Of a DNA stretch of 64,000 nt, positions 31,705-36,100 are shown piece after piece (the stretch's first letter is position 1; every line of letters starts with the position of its first letter). The DNA comes from Mycobacterium sp. GA-2829. GTDB taxonomy: Bacteria; Actinomycetota; Actinomycetes; Mycobacteriales; Mycobacteriaceae. The stretch is taken from assembly GCF_001499965.1 (NCBI RefSeq), contig NZ_LQIT01000011.1:1-64000 (forward strand), read 5' to 3'. The position numbers were made by a program, and so were the translations under genes. A model generated the notes under the pieces. It was given only the letters and a program-made list of their open reading frames with translations. It was not told the DNA's origin and ran no database searches.

Positions 31705-32484
31705 CTACGCAGCGGCTGCTTTGACGGCGCGGCCCACTTCCGCGCGCAATTCCGTGTACTCCGGTGAACGCCGCAGCTCGTCGGGGTCGACACCGGTGCG
31801 CGGCAGATCCACCGGCAGGTCCAGCGCCACCTGACCCGGCCGCCGGGTGAGCACAACGATGCGCGAACCGAGGAACGCGGCCTCGTCGGCGCTGTGGGTG
31901 ACGAACACCGTCGTGCGGCCCGATTCCGCGCTGACCTGCCGCACGTCCTCCTGCAACCGTTCCCGGGTGAGGGCGTCGAGCGCGGCGAACGGTTCGTCGA
32001 GCAGGAACAGCGGGGTCTCGGCCGCCAACGCCCGCGCGATCGCGACCCGCTGCTGCTGCCCGCCGCTGATCTCCCAGATCCGCCGGTCCGCGGTCCCCTC
32101 GAGCCCGACGCGCGTCAGCAGCTGCTCGCGGCGCTCGGCGCGGCGGTCCCGCGGCACCCGGGCGTACTTCAGCGCGAGGTCGATGTTGCCGCCGACCGTC
32201 CGCCACGGGAACAGCCGCGGCTGCTGGAACACCACACCCGCGGTCAACCCCGGGGTCGGCGGAGTGCCCGCGACCGCGACGGACCCCTCGGTGGGCGCCT
32301 CGAAACCGGCAAGCAACCGCAGCAGTGTGCTCTTCCCGCACCCGGAGGCGCCGACGAGCACCAGGAAGGCGCCCGGTTCGACGGTCAGGTCGACGGGCCC
32401 GACCGCGGTCACCTCCTGGCCACCGCGGCCGTACCGGTGCGAGACGCCCCGCAGCGCGATGCCGACGTCACTGGGTGATGGCAC
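31705..32484 (-). CDS. tauB: Taurine/sulfonate ABC transporter ATP-binding protein TauB
   Basis: 259-residue ABC ATPase: Walker A GASGCGKST, Q-loop VVFQQPRLFPW, signature SGGQQQR, Walker B PLFLLDEPF and H-loop FVTHSADEA. It energises uptake through TauC with TauA as the binding protein. GTG 32484 overlaps the end of tauA by 17 nt. Together with tauA similarity and the Cys-rich leader ORF upstream of tauC, a role in organosulfur scavenging is well supported; whether taurine itself is the substrate is not proven. Confidence 0.88.
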   Translation of the reverse strand: MPSPSDVGIALRGVSHRYGRGGQEVTAVGPVDLTVEPGAFLVLVGASGCGKSTLLRLLAGFEAPTEGSVAVAGTPPTPGLTAGVVFQQPRLFPWRTVGGNIDLALKYARVPRDRRAERREQLLTRVGLEGTADRRIWEISGGQQQRVAIARALAAETPLFLLDEPFAALDALTRERLQEDVRQVSAESGRTTVFVTHSADEAAFLGSRIVVLTRRPGQVALDLPVDLPRTGVDPDELRRSPEYTELRAEVGRAVKAAAA

Positions 32485-33493
32485 CGGGTAGACCCTTGGT
32501 GTAGATCGCGTCCTGGAACGTCTTCAGCGGTGCGGCGGCCGGGATCTGCTTCTGCTCGGCGAGGAACTGCGATGCGCTCTGCAGGTTCACCGCGAGGTTG
32601 CCCGGCGCCCCGTCGGATCCCAACCACTCCGGTGAGGCGACCTCGGCCGGGGTCAGGTACACGCCCTGCTTGAGCTGTCCCGCAACCTCTTCCGGCGTCA
32701 GTCCGATCTCCGCGGCGATCGCCTTGGCCGCCGCCTGGGGATCGTCCTTGATGACGGTGAGCGCGCGGGCCTGCTGCTGACGCCAGATGTCGACCACCTC
32801 GGGGTGGGCCTCGGCGAATTCGTCGGCCACCACGGCCAGGTCCAGCGTGGGCTTCCCGTCGCGGGCCAGCTGACGGCTGGTGATCAGGTCCTTGCCGTTG
32901 CGGCGCAGCTGGTCCAGCGTCGGCAGCCACGAGTAGCCAGCGTCGATGTCACCGCGCTCGAACGCCGCCAGGATGGCCTGCGGCTGCAGGTCGACCAGCT
33001 GAACGTCGTTGGGCGACAACCCGTTCTGGTCCAGCGCGGCCAGCAGGCTGTAATGCGCGGTCGACGCGAACGGGGTGCCGACCCGCTTACCGCGCAGATC
33101 GGCGATCGTGTTCACGCCACTGACGTTGCGCGCCACCAGCGCCTCGTTGTCCCCGGCGACGTCGAGCACGAACGCCACCTTGTAGGGGATGTTCAGCGGC
33201 GCCGACAGCCCGCGGGCGACCGGGCTGGAACCCAGCGCGCCGAAGTCGATTTCCTTGGCGACGAACGCGGTGTTCACGTCGGCCCCGGAGTCGAACTTCG
33301 TCCACTTGATGTTGTAGTCCGGCAACGCCTCTTCGAGCCAGCCGTTGTTCTTGACGATCAGATCGCCACTCGGAAACGTCTGGTAGGCAATGCGAATGGT
33401 CTGCTTGTCCGCCGACTGCTCGGACCGGTCCACCGAGCAGCCGGCCAACGCCAGCATCGCAACGACCGCTGCGGCAAGGGCTTTGAATCTCAT
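32468..33493 (-). CDS. tauA: Taurine ABC transporter substrate-binding lipoprotein TauA
   Basis: 341 residues. The lipoprotein signal ends LALAGC, so it is anchored outside the membrane. The body resembles TauA in successive blocks: IRIAYQTFPSGD, WTKFDSGADV, GALGSSPVA, GKRVGTPFASTAHYSLLAAL, LQPQAILAAFERGDIDAGY. It should capture taurine or a related alkanesulfonate. ATG 33493 has AGGAAG upstream and overlaps the tauC stop (ATGA). No TauD-type dioxygenase is encoded next to it. Confidence 0.88.
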   Translation of the reverse strand: MRFKALAAAVVAMLALAGCSVDRSEQSADKQTIRIAYQTFPSGDLIVKNNGWLEEALPDYNIKWTKFDSGADVNTAFVAKEIDFGALGSSPVARGLSAPLNIPYKVAFVLDVAGDNEALVARNVSGVNTIADLRGKRVGTPFASTAHYSLLAALDQNGLSPNDVQLVDLQPQAILAAFERGDIDAGYSWLPTLDQLRRNGKDLITSRQLARDGKPTLDLAVVADEFAEAHPEVVDIWRQQQARALTVIKDDPQAAAKAIAAEIGLTPEEVAGQLKQGVYLTPAEVASPEWLGSDGAPGNLAVNLQSASQFLAEQKQIPAAAPLKTFQDAIYTKGLPGAITQ

Positions 33494-34350
33494 ATTCTTC
33501 CTCTCCAGGGGACGGCGCGACGTTCGATCGTGCGCAACAAGCCGTCGATGACCAGACCCGAGATGCCGATGGCGAAGATGCCGACCAGCACGACCGGGGT
33601 GTTGTTGTAGTTGCTGGCGTCCTTGACCAGGCCGCCGACCCCGGGCAGCCCGTTGAACAGTTCGGCGGCGACCACCGACGAGTACGCCATGCCGACCGCC
33701 AACCGGATGCCGGTGAACGTCTCCGGCAGCGCCGAGGGCACCACCACGTCTCGGATCACCTCCGCGCGCGAGGCGCCCAGCGCGCGGGCCGCCTCGATCA
33801 GCCCGACGGGTGCGGCCATCACCGCCGCCGTCGTCGCGACGGCCGCCGGGGGCAGCGCCGCCAGCGCGAGCAGCGTGATCTTGGGTGCCTCGTCGATGCC
33901 GAGCCAGATGACCAGCAGGAAGAAGTACGCCAGCGGCGGCAGTGCCCGCAGGAACGTCAGCCACGGTTCGAGCACGCTGCGCACCCAGCTGATCGACCCC
34001 ATGACCAGGCCGAGCAGCACGCCGAGCACCACGCCGATGACGACGCCGGCCAGCACGCGACGCAGCGTCATGTACAGGTGCTCGACCAACAGGTAGCCGC
34101 CGTACCCGCGCACCCCGTCGTGGGTGGTGGACACGTCGATGAACGCTCGCCACACCGTGGCCGGATACGGCACGAAGGTCTGGTTCCAGACACCGCTGGC
34201 CGCGGCGAGCTGCCACAGCCCGAAGAACACCGCCAGGGACAGCAGGGGCAGCGCGGCTCGGGTCAACCGGCCGCGCCAGTTACCGCGCGGGGCGGGGGCG
34301 GGCACGTCGCGTTGCGACTCGTCCGGGGTGATATCGACGAATACCGACAC
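33490..34350 (-). CDS. tauC: Taurine/sulfonate ABC transporter permease TauC
   Basis: 286 residues with about six membrane helices and the permease EAA loop EAARALGASRAEVIRDVVVPSA interacting with the ATPase. The C-terminus RRAVPWRG resembles TauC RRLTPWHG. First gene of the operon. GTG 34350 has only a weak AGAAAG ribosome binding site, 41 bp below a Cys-Cys-Cys leader ORF, which fits control of its translation or transcription by the leader. Confidence 0.87.
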   Translation of the reverse strand: MSVFVDITPDESQRDVPAPAPRGNWRGRLTRAALPLLSLAVFFGLWQLAAASGVWNQTFVPYPATVWRAFIDVSTTHDGVRGYGGYLLVEHLYMTLRRVLAGVVIGVVLGVLLGLVMGSISWVRSVLEPWLTFLRALPPLAYFFLLVIWLGIDEAPKITLLALAALPPAAVATTAAVMAAPVGLIEAARALGASRAEVIRDVVVPSALPETFTGIRLAVGMAYSSVVAAELFNGLPGVGGLVKDASNYNNTPVVLVGIFAIGISGLVIDGLLRTIERRAVPWRGRI

Positions 34351-34390
34351 GGGTGACGACTTTCTGTGGCTGAAGCGAGGACGGTGGGCG

Positions 34391-34435
34391 TCAGCGACAA
34401 CAGCAGGCGTCAGACAGCGCGCGGTTCACCGGCAT
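34391..34435 (-). CDS. Cysteine-codon leader peptide upstream of tauCAB
   Basis: A 14-codon minus-strand ORF reads MPVNRALSDACCCR-stop: three consecutive Cys codons (TGC TGT TGT), one Arg, then TGA. No Shine-Dalgarno is seen, but a promoter (-35 TTGTCG, -10 TACCAAT) places the likely transcription start at the internal GTG (34429), giving a leaderless 12-residue version. Polycysteine leaderless ORFs are known in mycobacteria as cysteine-responsive attenuators of sulfur operons; position 40 bp before the taurine importer fits exactly. Ribosome stalling at the Cys codons under cysteine shortage would switch on the operon. Confidence 0.75.
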   Translation of the reverse strand: MPVNRALSDACCCR

Positions 34436-34464
34436 ATTGGTACCGCCACGGCGAGATGCGACAA
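34436..34464 (-). promoter_or_regulatory. Promoter of the leader-tauCAB transcript
   Basis: On the minus strand TTGTCG (34459-34464), a 16-bp spacer and TACCAAT (34436-34442) form a SigA-like promoter. The -10 ends 6 nt before the GTG at 34429, the geometry expected for a leaderless transcript of the Cys leader peptide. Confidence 0.6.
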
Positions 34465-34485
34465 AGAATTGCGATCCGCGTGAAT

Positions 34486-36030
34486 TTATTCGGGTTGGCT
34501 GCCGCGGGCATCGAGCCGGCGCAGCACTCGGTCGACGACCGTCGGGTCGGTGCCCGATTCGGACCGCGCCTCGACGACGGCGTCCCGGGCGGCCGAGAGC
34601 ATCTCGTCCTTGAGGGCGTTCACGGTCATCGGGTCCTTGGCACCGTCCTCGTCGCGCGTCAGCCCCAGCGAGTGCCACATCCGTTCGGCGTTGTCGCGCG
34701 CATGGTCGATGGCTTCGGCATCGGCGCCGTCCTCGTCGCGCAGTTCCTCGAGCCGTCGCATCCCGGCCTCACGGGCGCGGCGGATGAGGTCCTGGACCGC
34801 GTCGTCCTCCTCGCGCGGGGAGGCGCGCACGCCGAGCCGGCGCACCAGGGTCGGCAGGGTCAGCCCCTGCAGCAGCAGCGTGACGACGATGACCACGAAC
34901 GCGAAGAACACCAGCCGTTCGCGCTCGGGGAAGTCCGGCGGCAGCGCCAGCACGGCGGCCAGCGTGACCACGCCGCGCATCCCCGCCCACGACGAGATCG
35001 TCATCTCCCGCCACCCGATCGGTTCGGCCACATGCGCTTTACGCCGGTGCAGCCGTTCATCGATACCCGCGACCGGGAAGATCCACGCGAAGCGCACGAC
35101 GATCACCACCGCCGTCAGCACGAGGCCCTGGATCACCAGTTCCTTGATCGGCACGTCCGCGCTGGCGGCCACGGCGCGGATCTGCAGCCCGACGAACGCG
35201 AACGCCGCACCGGTCAACAGCAGTTCGACGATCTCCCACGTCGTGTTCGTGGCCAGCCGGGTCTGGGAGGATTCGACGTCGCCGTAGCGGCTCATCGCCA
35301 GCGCGACGGTCACGACGGCGAGCACGCCGCTGCCGTGGACGGCGTCGGCGGCCGCGTACGCCGCGAACGGGACGACCAGGACCAGTCCGCTGCCGGCCGG
35401 GTGCGGCGGCAGCTTGGTGACCAGCCAGCGCGTGGCGGCCGCGATGGCCAGACCGACCGCGACGCCGAGGACGACGGCGAGCCCGAGCGCCTCCCCGGCG
35501 CCCCACGCGGAGAAGGCGCCGGTCATCGTGCCCGCGACCGCGACCTCGTAGAGCACCAGCGAGGTGGCGTCGTTGGACAGTCCCTCACCTTCGAGGATGG
35601 TGCGCAGCCGCCGCGGGATGCCGAGTCTCTGCGCGACGGCGGTGGCCGCGACGGCGTCCGGCGGGGCGACCGCCGCCCCCAGCGCGATCGCCGCGATCAG
35701 CGGCACCGTCGGCACGAGCGCGTGCAGCGCCGCGCCGACCGCGACGGCGGTGACGCCGACCAGCGCGACGGCCAGCAGGGCGATGGGCCTGCGGTTGTCG
35801 AGGAATTCGCGCCACGACGTGCGGCGTGCGGCGGCGAACAGCAGCGGCGGCAGCACCAACGGCAGGATCAGTTCCGGGTTGGGGGTCAGCACCGGCACGG
35901 CGGGGATGAAAGCCAACGCCAGGCCGAACGCGAGCATGACCGCCGGATAGGGAATCGACAGCCGCTGCGCCGCGGGCGCGAGGACGACCGTCGCCGTCAG
36001 CAGCGCCAAGCACAGGGTCAGAGCGGCCAC
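34486..36030 (-). CDS. CPA1-family cation/proton antiporter
   Basis: 514 residues with about 12 membrane helices and a cytosolic tail of about 100 residues. Family motifs are VAPPDAVAATAVAQRLG, the ion-site region EGEGLSNDATSLVLYE (Asn-Asp pair) and WAGMRGVVTLAAVLALP. NhaP/NhaK-type proteins exchange Na+ or K+ for H+, serving pH and salt homeostasis. GTG 36030 is selected for GAAAGG (complement of 36040-36045); the frame to 36093 is not needed. Its tail is acidic and Arg-rich. Confidence 0.88.
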   Translation of the reverse strand: MAALTLCLALLTATVVLAPAAQRLSIPYPAVMLAFGLALAFIPAVPVLTPNPELILPLVLPPLLFAAARRTSWREFLDNRRPIALLAVALVGVTAVAVGAALHALVPTVPLIAAIALGAAVAPPDAVAATAVAQRLGIPRRLRTILEGEGLSNDATSLVLYEVAVAGTMTGAFSAWGAGEALGLAVVLGVAVGLAIAAATRWLVTKLPPHPAGSGLVLVVPFAAYAAADAVHGSGVLAVVTVALAMSRYGDVESSQTRLATNTTWEIVELLLTGAAFAFVGLQIRAVAASADVPIKELVIQGLVLTAVVIVVRFAWIFPVAGIDERLHRRKAHVAEPIGWREMTISSWAGMRGVVTLAAVLALPPDFPERERLVFFAFVVIVVTLLLQGLTLPTLVRRLGVRASPREEDDAVQDLIRRAREAGMRRLEELRDEDGADAEAIDHARDNAERMWHSLGLTRDEDGAKDPMTVNALKDEMLSAARDAVVEARSESGTDPTVVDRVLRRLDARGSQPE

Positions 36031-36100
36031 GGCGGCGATCCTTTCGGGCGGACAGGCACGTCCTTGTACCCGCAATCCCGCCGCCGGAAGCACGCGACCA

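Follow-up and report, generated by a model that had tools for sequence, protein, structure and literature searches.

The window analysed here is a 64,000-nt stretch of Mycobacterium sp. GA-2829 DNA (contig NZ_LQIT01000011.1, positions 1 to 64,000). A short ORF is found on its minus strand, flanked by the end of a Na+/H+ exchanger gene (34486-36093) and by the gene for a tauC-type permease. The ORF, VNRALSDACCCR followed by TGA, occupies 34391..34429. It comprises 12 codons from the GTG at 34429, which is the predicted 5' end of the mRNA, or 14 codons from an in-frame ATG located six bases upstream, at 34435. Three consecutive cysteine codons, TGC-TGT-TGT (34397..34405, minus strand), the putative regulatory codons, are followed by CGC and the TGA stop (34393-34391), and 40 nt separate this stop from the GTG start of tauC at 34350. 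The original prediction of a 14-codon ORF ending in ACCCR-stop, 40 bp upstream of a TauC permease gene, was thus confirmed in the sequence.

Profile matches identified the three genes downstream of the leader, all on the minus strand, as the permease (33490..34350; PF00528), substrate-binding protein (tauA-type, 32468..33460, start approximate) and ATPase (tauB-type, 31705..32484; PF00005) of a tau/ssu-type importer. A Shine-Dalgarno (SD)-like GAAAG (34360..34364, minus strand) precedes tauC. The TauC, TauA and TauB equivalog models were the best matches of the three subunits, yet all three scores fell below the NCBIfam cut-offs: 173.6 bits versus a cut-off of 342 for TauC, 230.5 versus 304.25 for TauA (TIGR01729) and 209.5 versus 357 for TauB. 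The operon had been described as a taurine/sulfonate importer. The tau/ssu assignment holds, but because of these scores the substrate is not fixed as taurine, which is a family-level guess. What follows the leader is thus an operon of the sulfur-metabolism kind, a tau/ssu-type ABC importer with a putative substrate. A search of the window against Rfam matched no families.

To obtain relatives of the locus, public genomes were scanned with the window permease, and the best 80 of 153 relatives were used, giving, with the window, 81 loci (L numbers below) that were classed by script and by eye. The comparison upstream of tauC orthologues that had been proposed as a check turned out positive: equivalents of the leader were present in 49 of the 81 loci, including the window, and 46 of the 81 (window and L052 included) had at least two consecutive Cys codons, while three had a leader with one Cys codon. 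The remaining loci consisted of 20 that were leader-less, one with a degenerate leader (L019), seven from Rhodococcus with a different leader, described below, and four that were left unclassified, one with almost no upstream DNA (L018) and three in which the match begins within the protein (L055, L061 and L071).

All leaders except that of L052 were analysed in detail. These 48 leaders are 10-19 codons long, start with GTG (32) or ATG (16) and stop with TGA (43) or TAG (5). Runs of four, three, two and one Cys codons are found in 2, 12, 31 and 3 leaders, respectively; the frame and at least two consecutive Cys codons were therefore kept in 45 of the 48, window included, as expected for tauC relatives by the original prediction. 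TGC and TGT are used almost equally (55 and 54 codons). Consecutive Cys codons thus sit near the stop of a short ORF, in the window as CCC-R-stop. By eye, the ATG six bases before the leader start is confined to the window and L004, its nearest relative, which makes GTG 34429 the start that aligns with those of the other leaders. Some leaders appear to have decayed or drifted: L019 has no Cys run, and others among L019, L030, L033 and L040 have single Cys codons beside Arg.

The promoter had been drawn as TTGTCG-N16-TACCAAT. This sequence is present on the minus strand, with the proposed -35 hexamer TTGTCG at 34464-34459, 16 nt before the -10 element TACCAAT (34436..34442). However, the hexamer is not conserved: its first T (position -35) is a T in 37 of the 48 leader loci, but the following bases vary. 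A scan for generic sigma-70 promoters in this part of the window was negative, and no consensus sigma-70 promoter was found. In the -10 region of the 48 leader loci, position -8 is an A in 42 and position -9 in 37. What is conserved instead of the hexamer is a longer upstream element, spanning -62 to -33 relative to the GTG (34462..34491, minus strand), whose distance is shared by leader and leader-less loci. Its consensus in the leader-less loci is TTTAACTCGCGCTGAGCACAGCTATTC, from which the window copy diverges. A strict pattern for the element found no other copy in the window genome, but this says little, since the pattern also misses the window's own divergent copy. The element is possibly an activator site for a sulfur regulator.

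In a leave-one-out analysis, the distance from the element to the leader start was 61-63 nt in 47 of the 48 leader loci and 64 nt in one. These distances are partly chosen, since in loci with several in-frame starts (e.g., L005, L006, L007, L016 and L027) one was picked with the promoter in view. The distances in the leader-less loci are free of such choice: with a model built from leader loci only, the element was located 61-62 nt from the start of tauC itself in 20 out of 20. In L048, for example, the leader-type promoter GGTACCAATACGCG runs directly into the tauC GTG. The leader-less loci also have an A at -11 (20/20) and a T at -7 (18/20), which fits a -10 element placed for initiation at the start codon. 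An SD-like site precedes tauC in 44 of the 48 leader loci versus none of the 20 leader-less loci, even when a wider pattern was used. The constant distance from promoter to first start codon, together with the lack of an SD in front of leader-less tauC, is the strongest indication of a leaderless reading of the leader. These features fit a fixed transcription start and, as we infer, leaderless translation of the leader, and support the earlier suggestion that the internal GTG is a leaderless start, which aligns with the starts in the relatives at a fixed distance from the conserved element. The start codon is placed at the expected 5' end of the mRNA by promoter geometry only.

In the leader-less loci (L048 (2926-3012), L011, L037, L060 and 16 others), tauC begins with a GTG at the position where the leader starts in the relatives, without an SD-like site, and these loci are predicted to make leaderless tauC mRNA. 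In eight of them (L011, L013, L015, L024, L036, L044, L054 and L060), there is an inverted repeat, TGACG(n4)CGTCA, that lies about 11-24 nt before tauC and overlaps the predicted -10 region. This repeat is possibly an operator that has replaced the RNA switch.

When folded alone, most leaders form one long imperfect hairpin, as judged by eye. Its arms comprise P1, in which leader codons 2-5 pair with the tauC start region; P2, in which codons 6-9 pair around and after the SD, in a register that varies between species; and P3, in which the Cys-Arg-stop codons pair with a segment abutting the SD. In the window, predicted folds place P1 at 34343..34425 (minus strand), with codons 2-4 (34418-34425) paired to the start region of tauC, including the start codon (34343-34351), and P2 at 34354..34412 (minus strand), with codons 6-9 paired to bases in and just after the SD; both stems were also supported by the cross-pairing test described below. 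P3 (34364..34400, minus strand), supported by pair counts, consists of the Cys-Arg-stop codons and the next bases (34388-34400) paired to 34364-34376, next to the SD. In the fold predicted for the window, base pairs involve the GUG start and three of the five bases of GAAAG. Fold z-scores ranged from -1.36 to -4.82 in the 12 leaders that were tested against shuffles; the window itself was only modestly better than its shuffles (z = -1.54; 15 of 200 shuffles as stable).

In the cross-pairing test, the arms of each leader were compared with permuted arms from 45 of the 48 leaders; L005, L016 and L073 were omitted on account of their long loops. Matched P1+P2 arms had a pairing energy of -15.3 kcal/mol versus -12.9 kcal/mol for permuted arms, and matched P3 arms -14.8 versus -13.2 kcal/mol; in neither case were any of 2000 permutations as good. 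The median mismatch was beaten in 39 of 45 rows for P1+P2, but in only 28 of 45 for P3. With 14 representatives at 80% identity, none of 5000 permutations was as good in either test (13 and 11 of 14 rows), while the test with three representatives at 70% identity was not significant.

MAFFT followed by RNAalifold on an alignment of 39 leaders (A1) yielded only four consensus pairs. A1 was too loose for structure and was replaced by A2, consisting of 18 leaders picked as seemingly alignable. A2 favours structure, since its members were selected for alignability, while the 45-leader pairing test is independent of that selection. In A2, 87.1% of the cells were paired, compared with 83.1% in shuffles and 22-46% in slid controls, and there were 14 cells with double-sided changes versus 4.9 in shuffles, with the slid control at -3 coming near (11). 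Paired cells, double-sided changes and the covariation score were each above all 500 shuffles, but the count of further pair types did not stand out from the shuffles (209 of 500). A third alignment of 51 model-fitted rows (A3), which was fitted to the structure and includes two stray rows (L039 minus and L029 minus), had 82.7% of its cells paired and 47 double-sided changes, above all shuffles. The leader RNA is thus predicted to fold over the tauC SD and start codon, with co-varying partners. Masking of the downstream ribosome-binding site is indicated by the predicted fold and the covariation, weakly so for the window taken alone.

A ribosome stalled in the leader was modelled as masking the 18 nt upstream of the A-site codon and 15 nt counted from its first base. 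When its A site was at the first Cys codon, opening the tauC start site in the 48 leaders cost 7.7 kcal/mol on average, down from 15.1 kcal/mol in the free RNA. The drop exceeded 3 kcal/mol in 44 of the 48; in the window, the cost went from 13.0 to 6.9 kcal/mol. The site opened to a similar degree when the stall was placed anywhere between about five codons upstream of the first Cys and two codons downstream of it. The stall model therefore does not single out Cys, and the cysteine link rests on the codons themselves.

Taken with the conserved frame and Cys codons, the fixed start distance and the co-varying structure over the tauC ribosome-binding site, which support the attenuator reading first proposed at the level of sequence, this model makes it likely that the leader is a cysteine-responsive translational attenuator of the tauCAB-type importer. 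Transcription would begin at GTG 34429, and the leader would be translated as a leaderless mRNA. When Cys-tRNA is ample, the ribosome would clear the Cys codons, terminate at the UGA and depart, upon which the leader RNA would refold over the tauC SD and GUG start, and little importer would be made. When cysteine is scarce, the ribosome would stall at the Cys codons and mask the 5' stem arms, freeing the tauC start. If this is true, the scavenging of organic sulfur is tied to cysteine supply via a ribosome-read switch.

The leader could act instead by transcriptional attenuation, governing termination before tauC, Rho-dependent or at a cryptic terminator, rather than ribosome access. Rho was suggested for mycobacterial cys leaders in a passage of PMC1262725, and RNA left untranslated past the leader could expose Rho sites. 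However, no site resembling an intrinsic terminator, with the hairpin and U-run of a classical attenuator, was found in 34330-34530, and the co-varying pairing sits around the SD and start codon of tauC. We therefore regard control of termination as unlikely. The same pairing raises the question of whether the leader is a structural or coupling element only, in which the Cys codons are kept since UGU-CGC-UGA forms a stem, without any sensing of cysteine. The last Cys codons do belong to P3, and the three single-Cys leaders retain a high opening cost, 11.7-22.8 kcal/mol. Against this, some leaders that lack the ACAG partner still encode Cys-Cys (e.g., L007, L035 and L042, by eye), and the Cys codons vary in their third base, as noted above, and form runs of one to four in frame near the stop, making a purely structural role quite improbable.

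That the ORF arose by chance and has no function would agree with the frequency of the motif, since the A-C-C-C-R-stop pattern occurs at two sites in the 6.5-Mb window genome and a reversed-pattern control also at two. What lifts the leader above chance is not the rarity of the motif, but its position and its conservation in 49 of the 81 tauC loci; with its placement, conservation and covariation, a functionless ORF is hardly credible. Translational attenuation in response to cysteine remains the reading that we prefer.

The distribution of the leader was surveyed with a covariance model, R1, built from 18 leaders. In the window genome there was one clear site, the leader itself (E = 3e-19, a score that is by construction, since the window is in the model), with the next hit at E = 3.25. 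Of 297 genomes in a sample of the genus, 75 had R1 hits (76 in total) with an E-value of 0.01 or better. The model matched directly at 69 of the 105 tauC genes found in this sample at E = 1e-90 or better, one of the matches (in G011) being only 55 nt long. Of the seven hits away from tauC, one (in G231) falls at a tauC that is broken up by Ns, and six were judged to be chance, as they were weak (E = 3e-5 to 0.009) and had no Cys run in the leader frame. When 301 genomes were drawn across the family from 31 genera, irrespective of the presence of tauC, R1 matched at E = 1e-4 or better in only four, all belonging to the leader's own genus.

On the permease tree (81 rows, midpoint root), 11 changes are required for the leader state, six of which are forced by branches with good support, and seven for the leader-less state, of which four are forced. 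The first mycobacterial branch (L005 and L010), which has moderate support, bears the leader, and the leader-bearing L067 nests among leader-less rows. We prefer to read this pattern as repeated loss of the leader from an ancestor that carried it. We lean slightly towards the view that the leader is a swappable cassette, with repeated switches between cysteine-gated, SD-led and ungated, leaderless translation of tauC through the clean loss (or gain) of ~80 nt behind a fixed promoter, which places the leaderless tauC start exactly at the position of the leader start. The leader-less relatives would then be natural deletions, offering a direct test of gating by the leader and of how leaderless and SD-led initiation interact.

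Other candidate leaders were sought in the window genome. One of them, the second A-C-C-C-R-stop site (C4:65820), was put down to chance, by eye only. Among 129 C-C-R-stop sites, 100 were listed and 30 made into loci, to which 15 further stretches were added, four of them overlapping earlier loci and one chosen for a TauD homologue. In this partial search, none of the short ORFs in the examined loci was judged a leader by its peptide and flanks, the following gene not being considered. A link between the TauD homologue on C35 and a leader was dropped, as the Cys-Cys motif found nearby belongs to the reading frame of a dehydrogenase.

Polycysteine leaderless short ORFs were reportedly described in mycobacteria by Canestrari et al. 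in 2020, with six responding loci in M. smegmatis. The leader described here is likely a new member of this class, and may already be among the loci of the class-defining study. Like the members of the class, it has a Cys run near the stop, a predicted leaderless start, a sulfur gene downstream and a fold predicted to mask the ribosome-binding site of that gene; unlike them, its target is an organosulfur importer. Canestrari 2020 is cited in passages of PMC9031893 and PMC13236596 for translation-level attenuation in M. smegmatis, and in one of PMC9094748 for regulatory ORFs that are conserved and rich in cysteine. PMC4633059 describes Cys-rich leaders ahead of cysA2, Rv0485/Msmeg_0932 and nirA. 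The leaders of cys operons, including those of Mycobacterium, in the relevant passages of PMC1262725 are likewise short ORFs with Cys codons near the stop and no obvious terminator; that work did not commit itself to one mechanism of regulation, and they were predicted before cys/cbs genes, whereas the window leader precedes a sulfonate-type importer. None of the literature matches listed, which consist of titles and the beginnings of abstracts and cover the literature in part, concerned a cysteine leader ahead of a tau or ssu operon. The present leader, if it acts as proposed, would extend the described cysteine leaders (cys operons, cysA2 and nirA) to an organosulfur importer.

The Ms5788A family (NCBIfam NF042933), located before cysA2, shares with the window leader a Cys run near the stop, but is a 27-position peptide of the RRAVDLCRV type, whereas the window leader has 12 codons without such a motif. 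Neither the window leader, padded to 21 aa, nor three relatives with upstream residues matched NF042933 or any other family up to E = 10. The window genome has an Ms5788A-type leader of its own, with six consecutive Cys codons (G000:C28:36387-36467; L155 2388-2468), before DUF4395 and rhodanese (cysA2-like) genes.

A different, Ms5788A-like Cys leader is found before the Rhodococcus tauC (L051, L056, L057, L065, L074, L076 and L079), 104-176 nt before the matched tauC start; the true spacing is shorter in four of these loci, because the match begins inside the protein. The leader peptide of L074 and L076 scored 29.7 bits against the Ms5788A model, under the 45-bit cut-off, and the other five are alike by eye. 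The resemblance of these leaders to the Ms5788A family suggests that tauC came under two kinds of cysteine leader.
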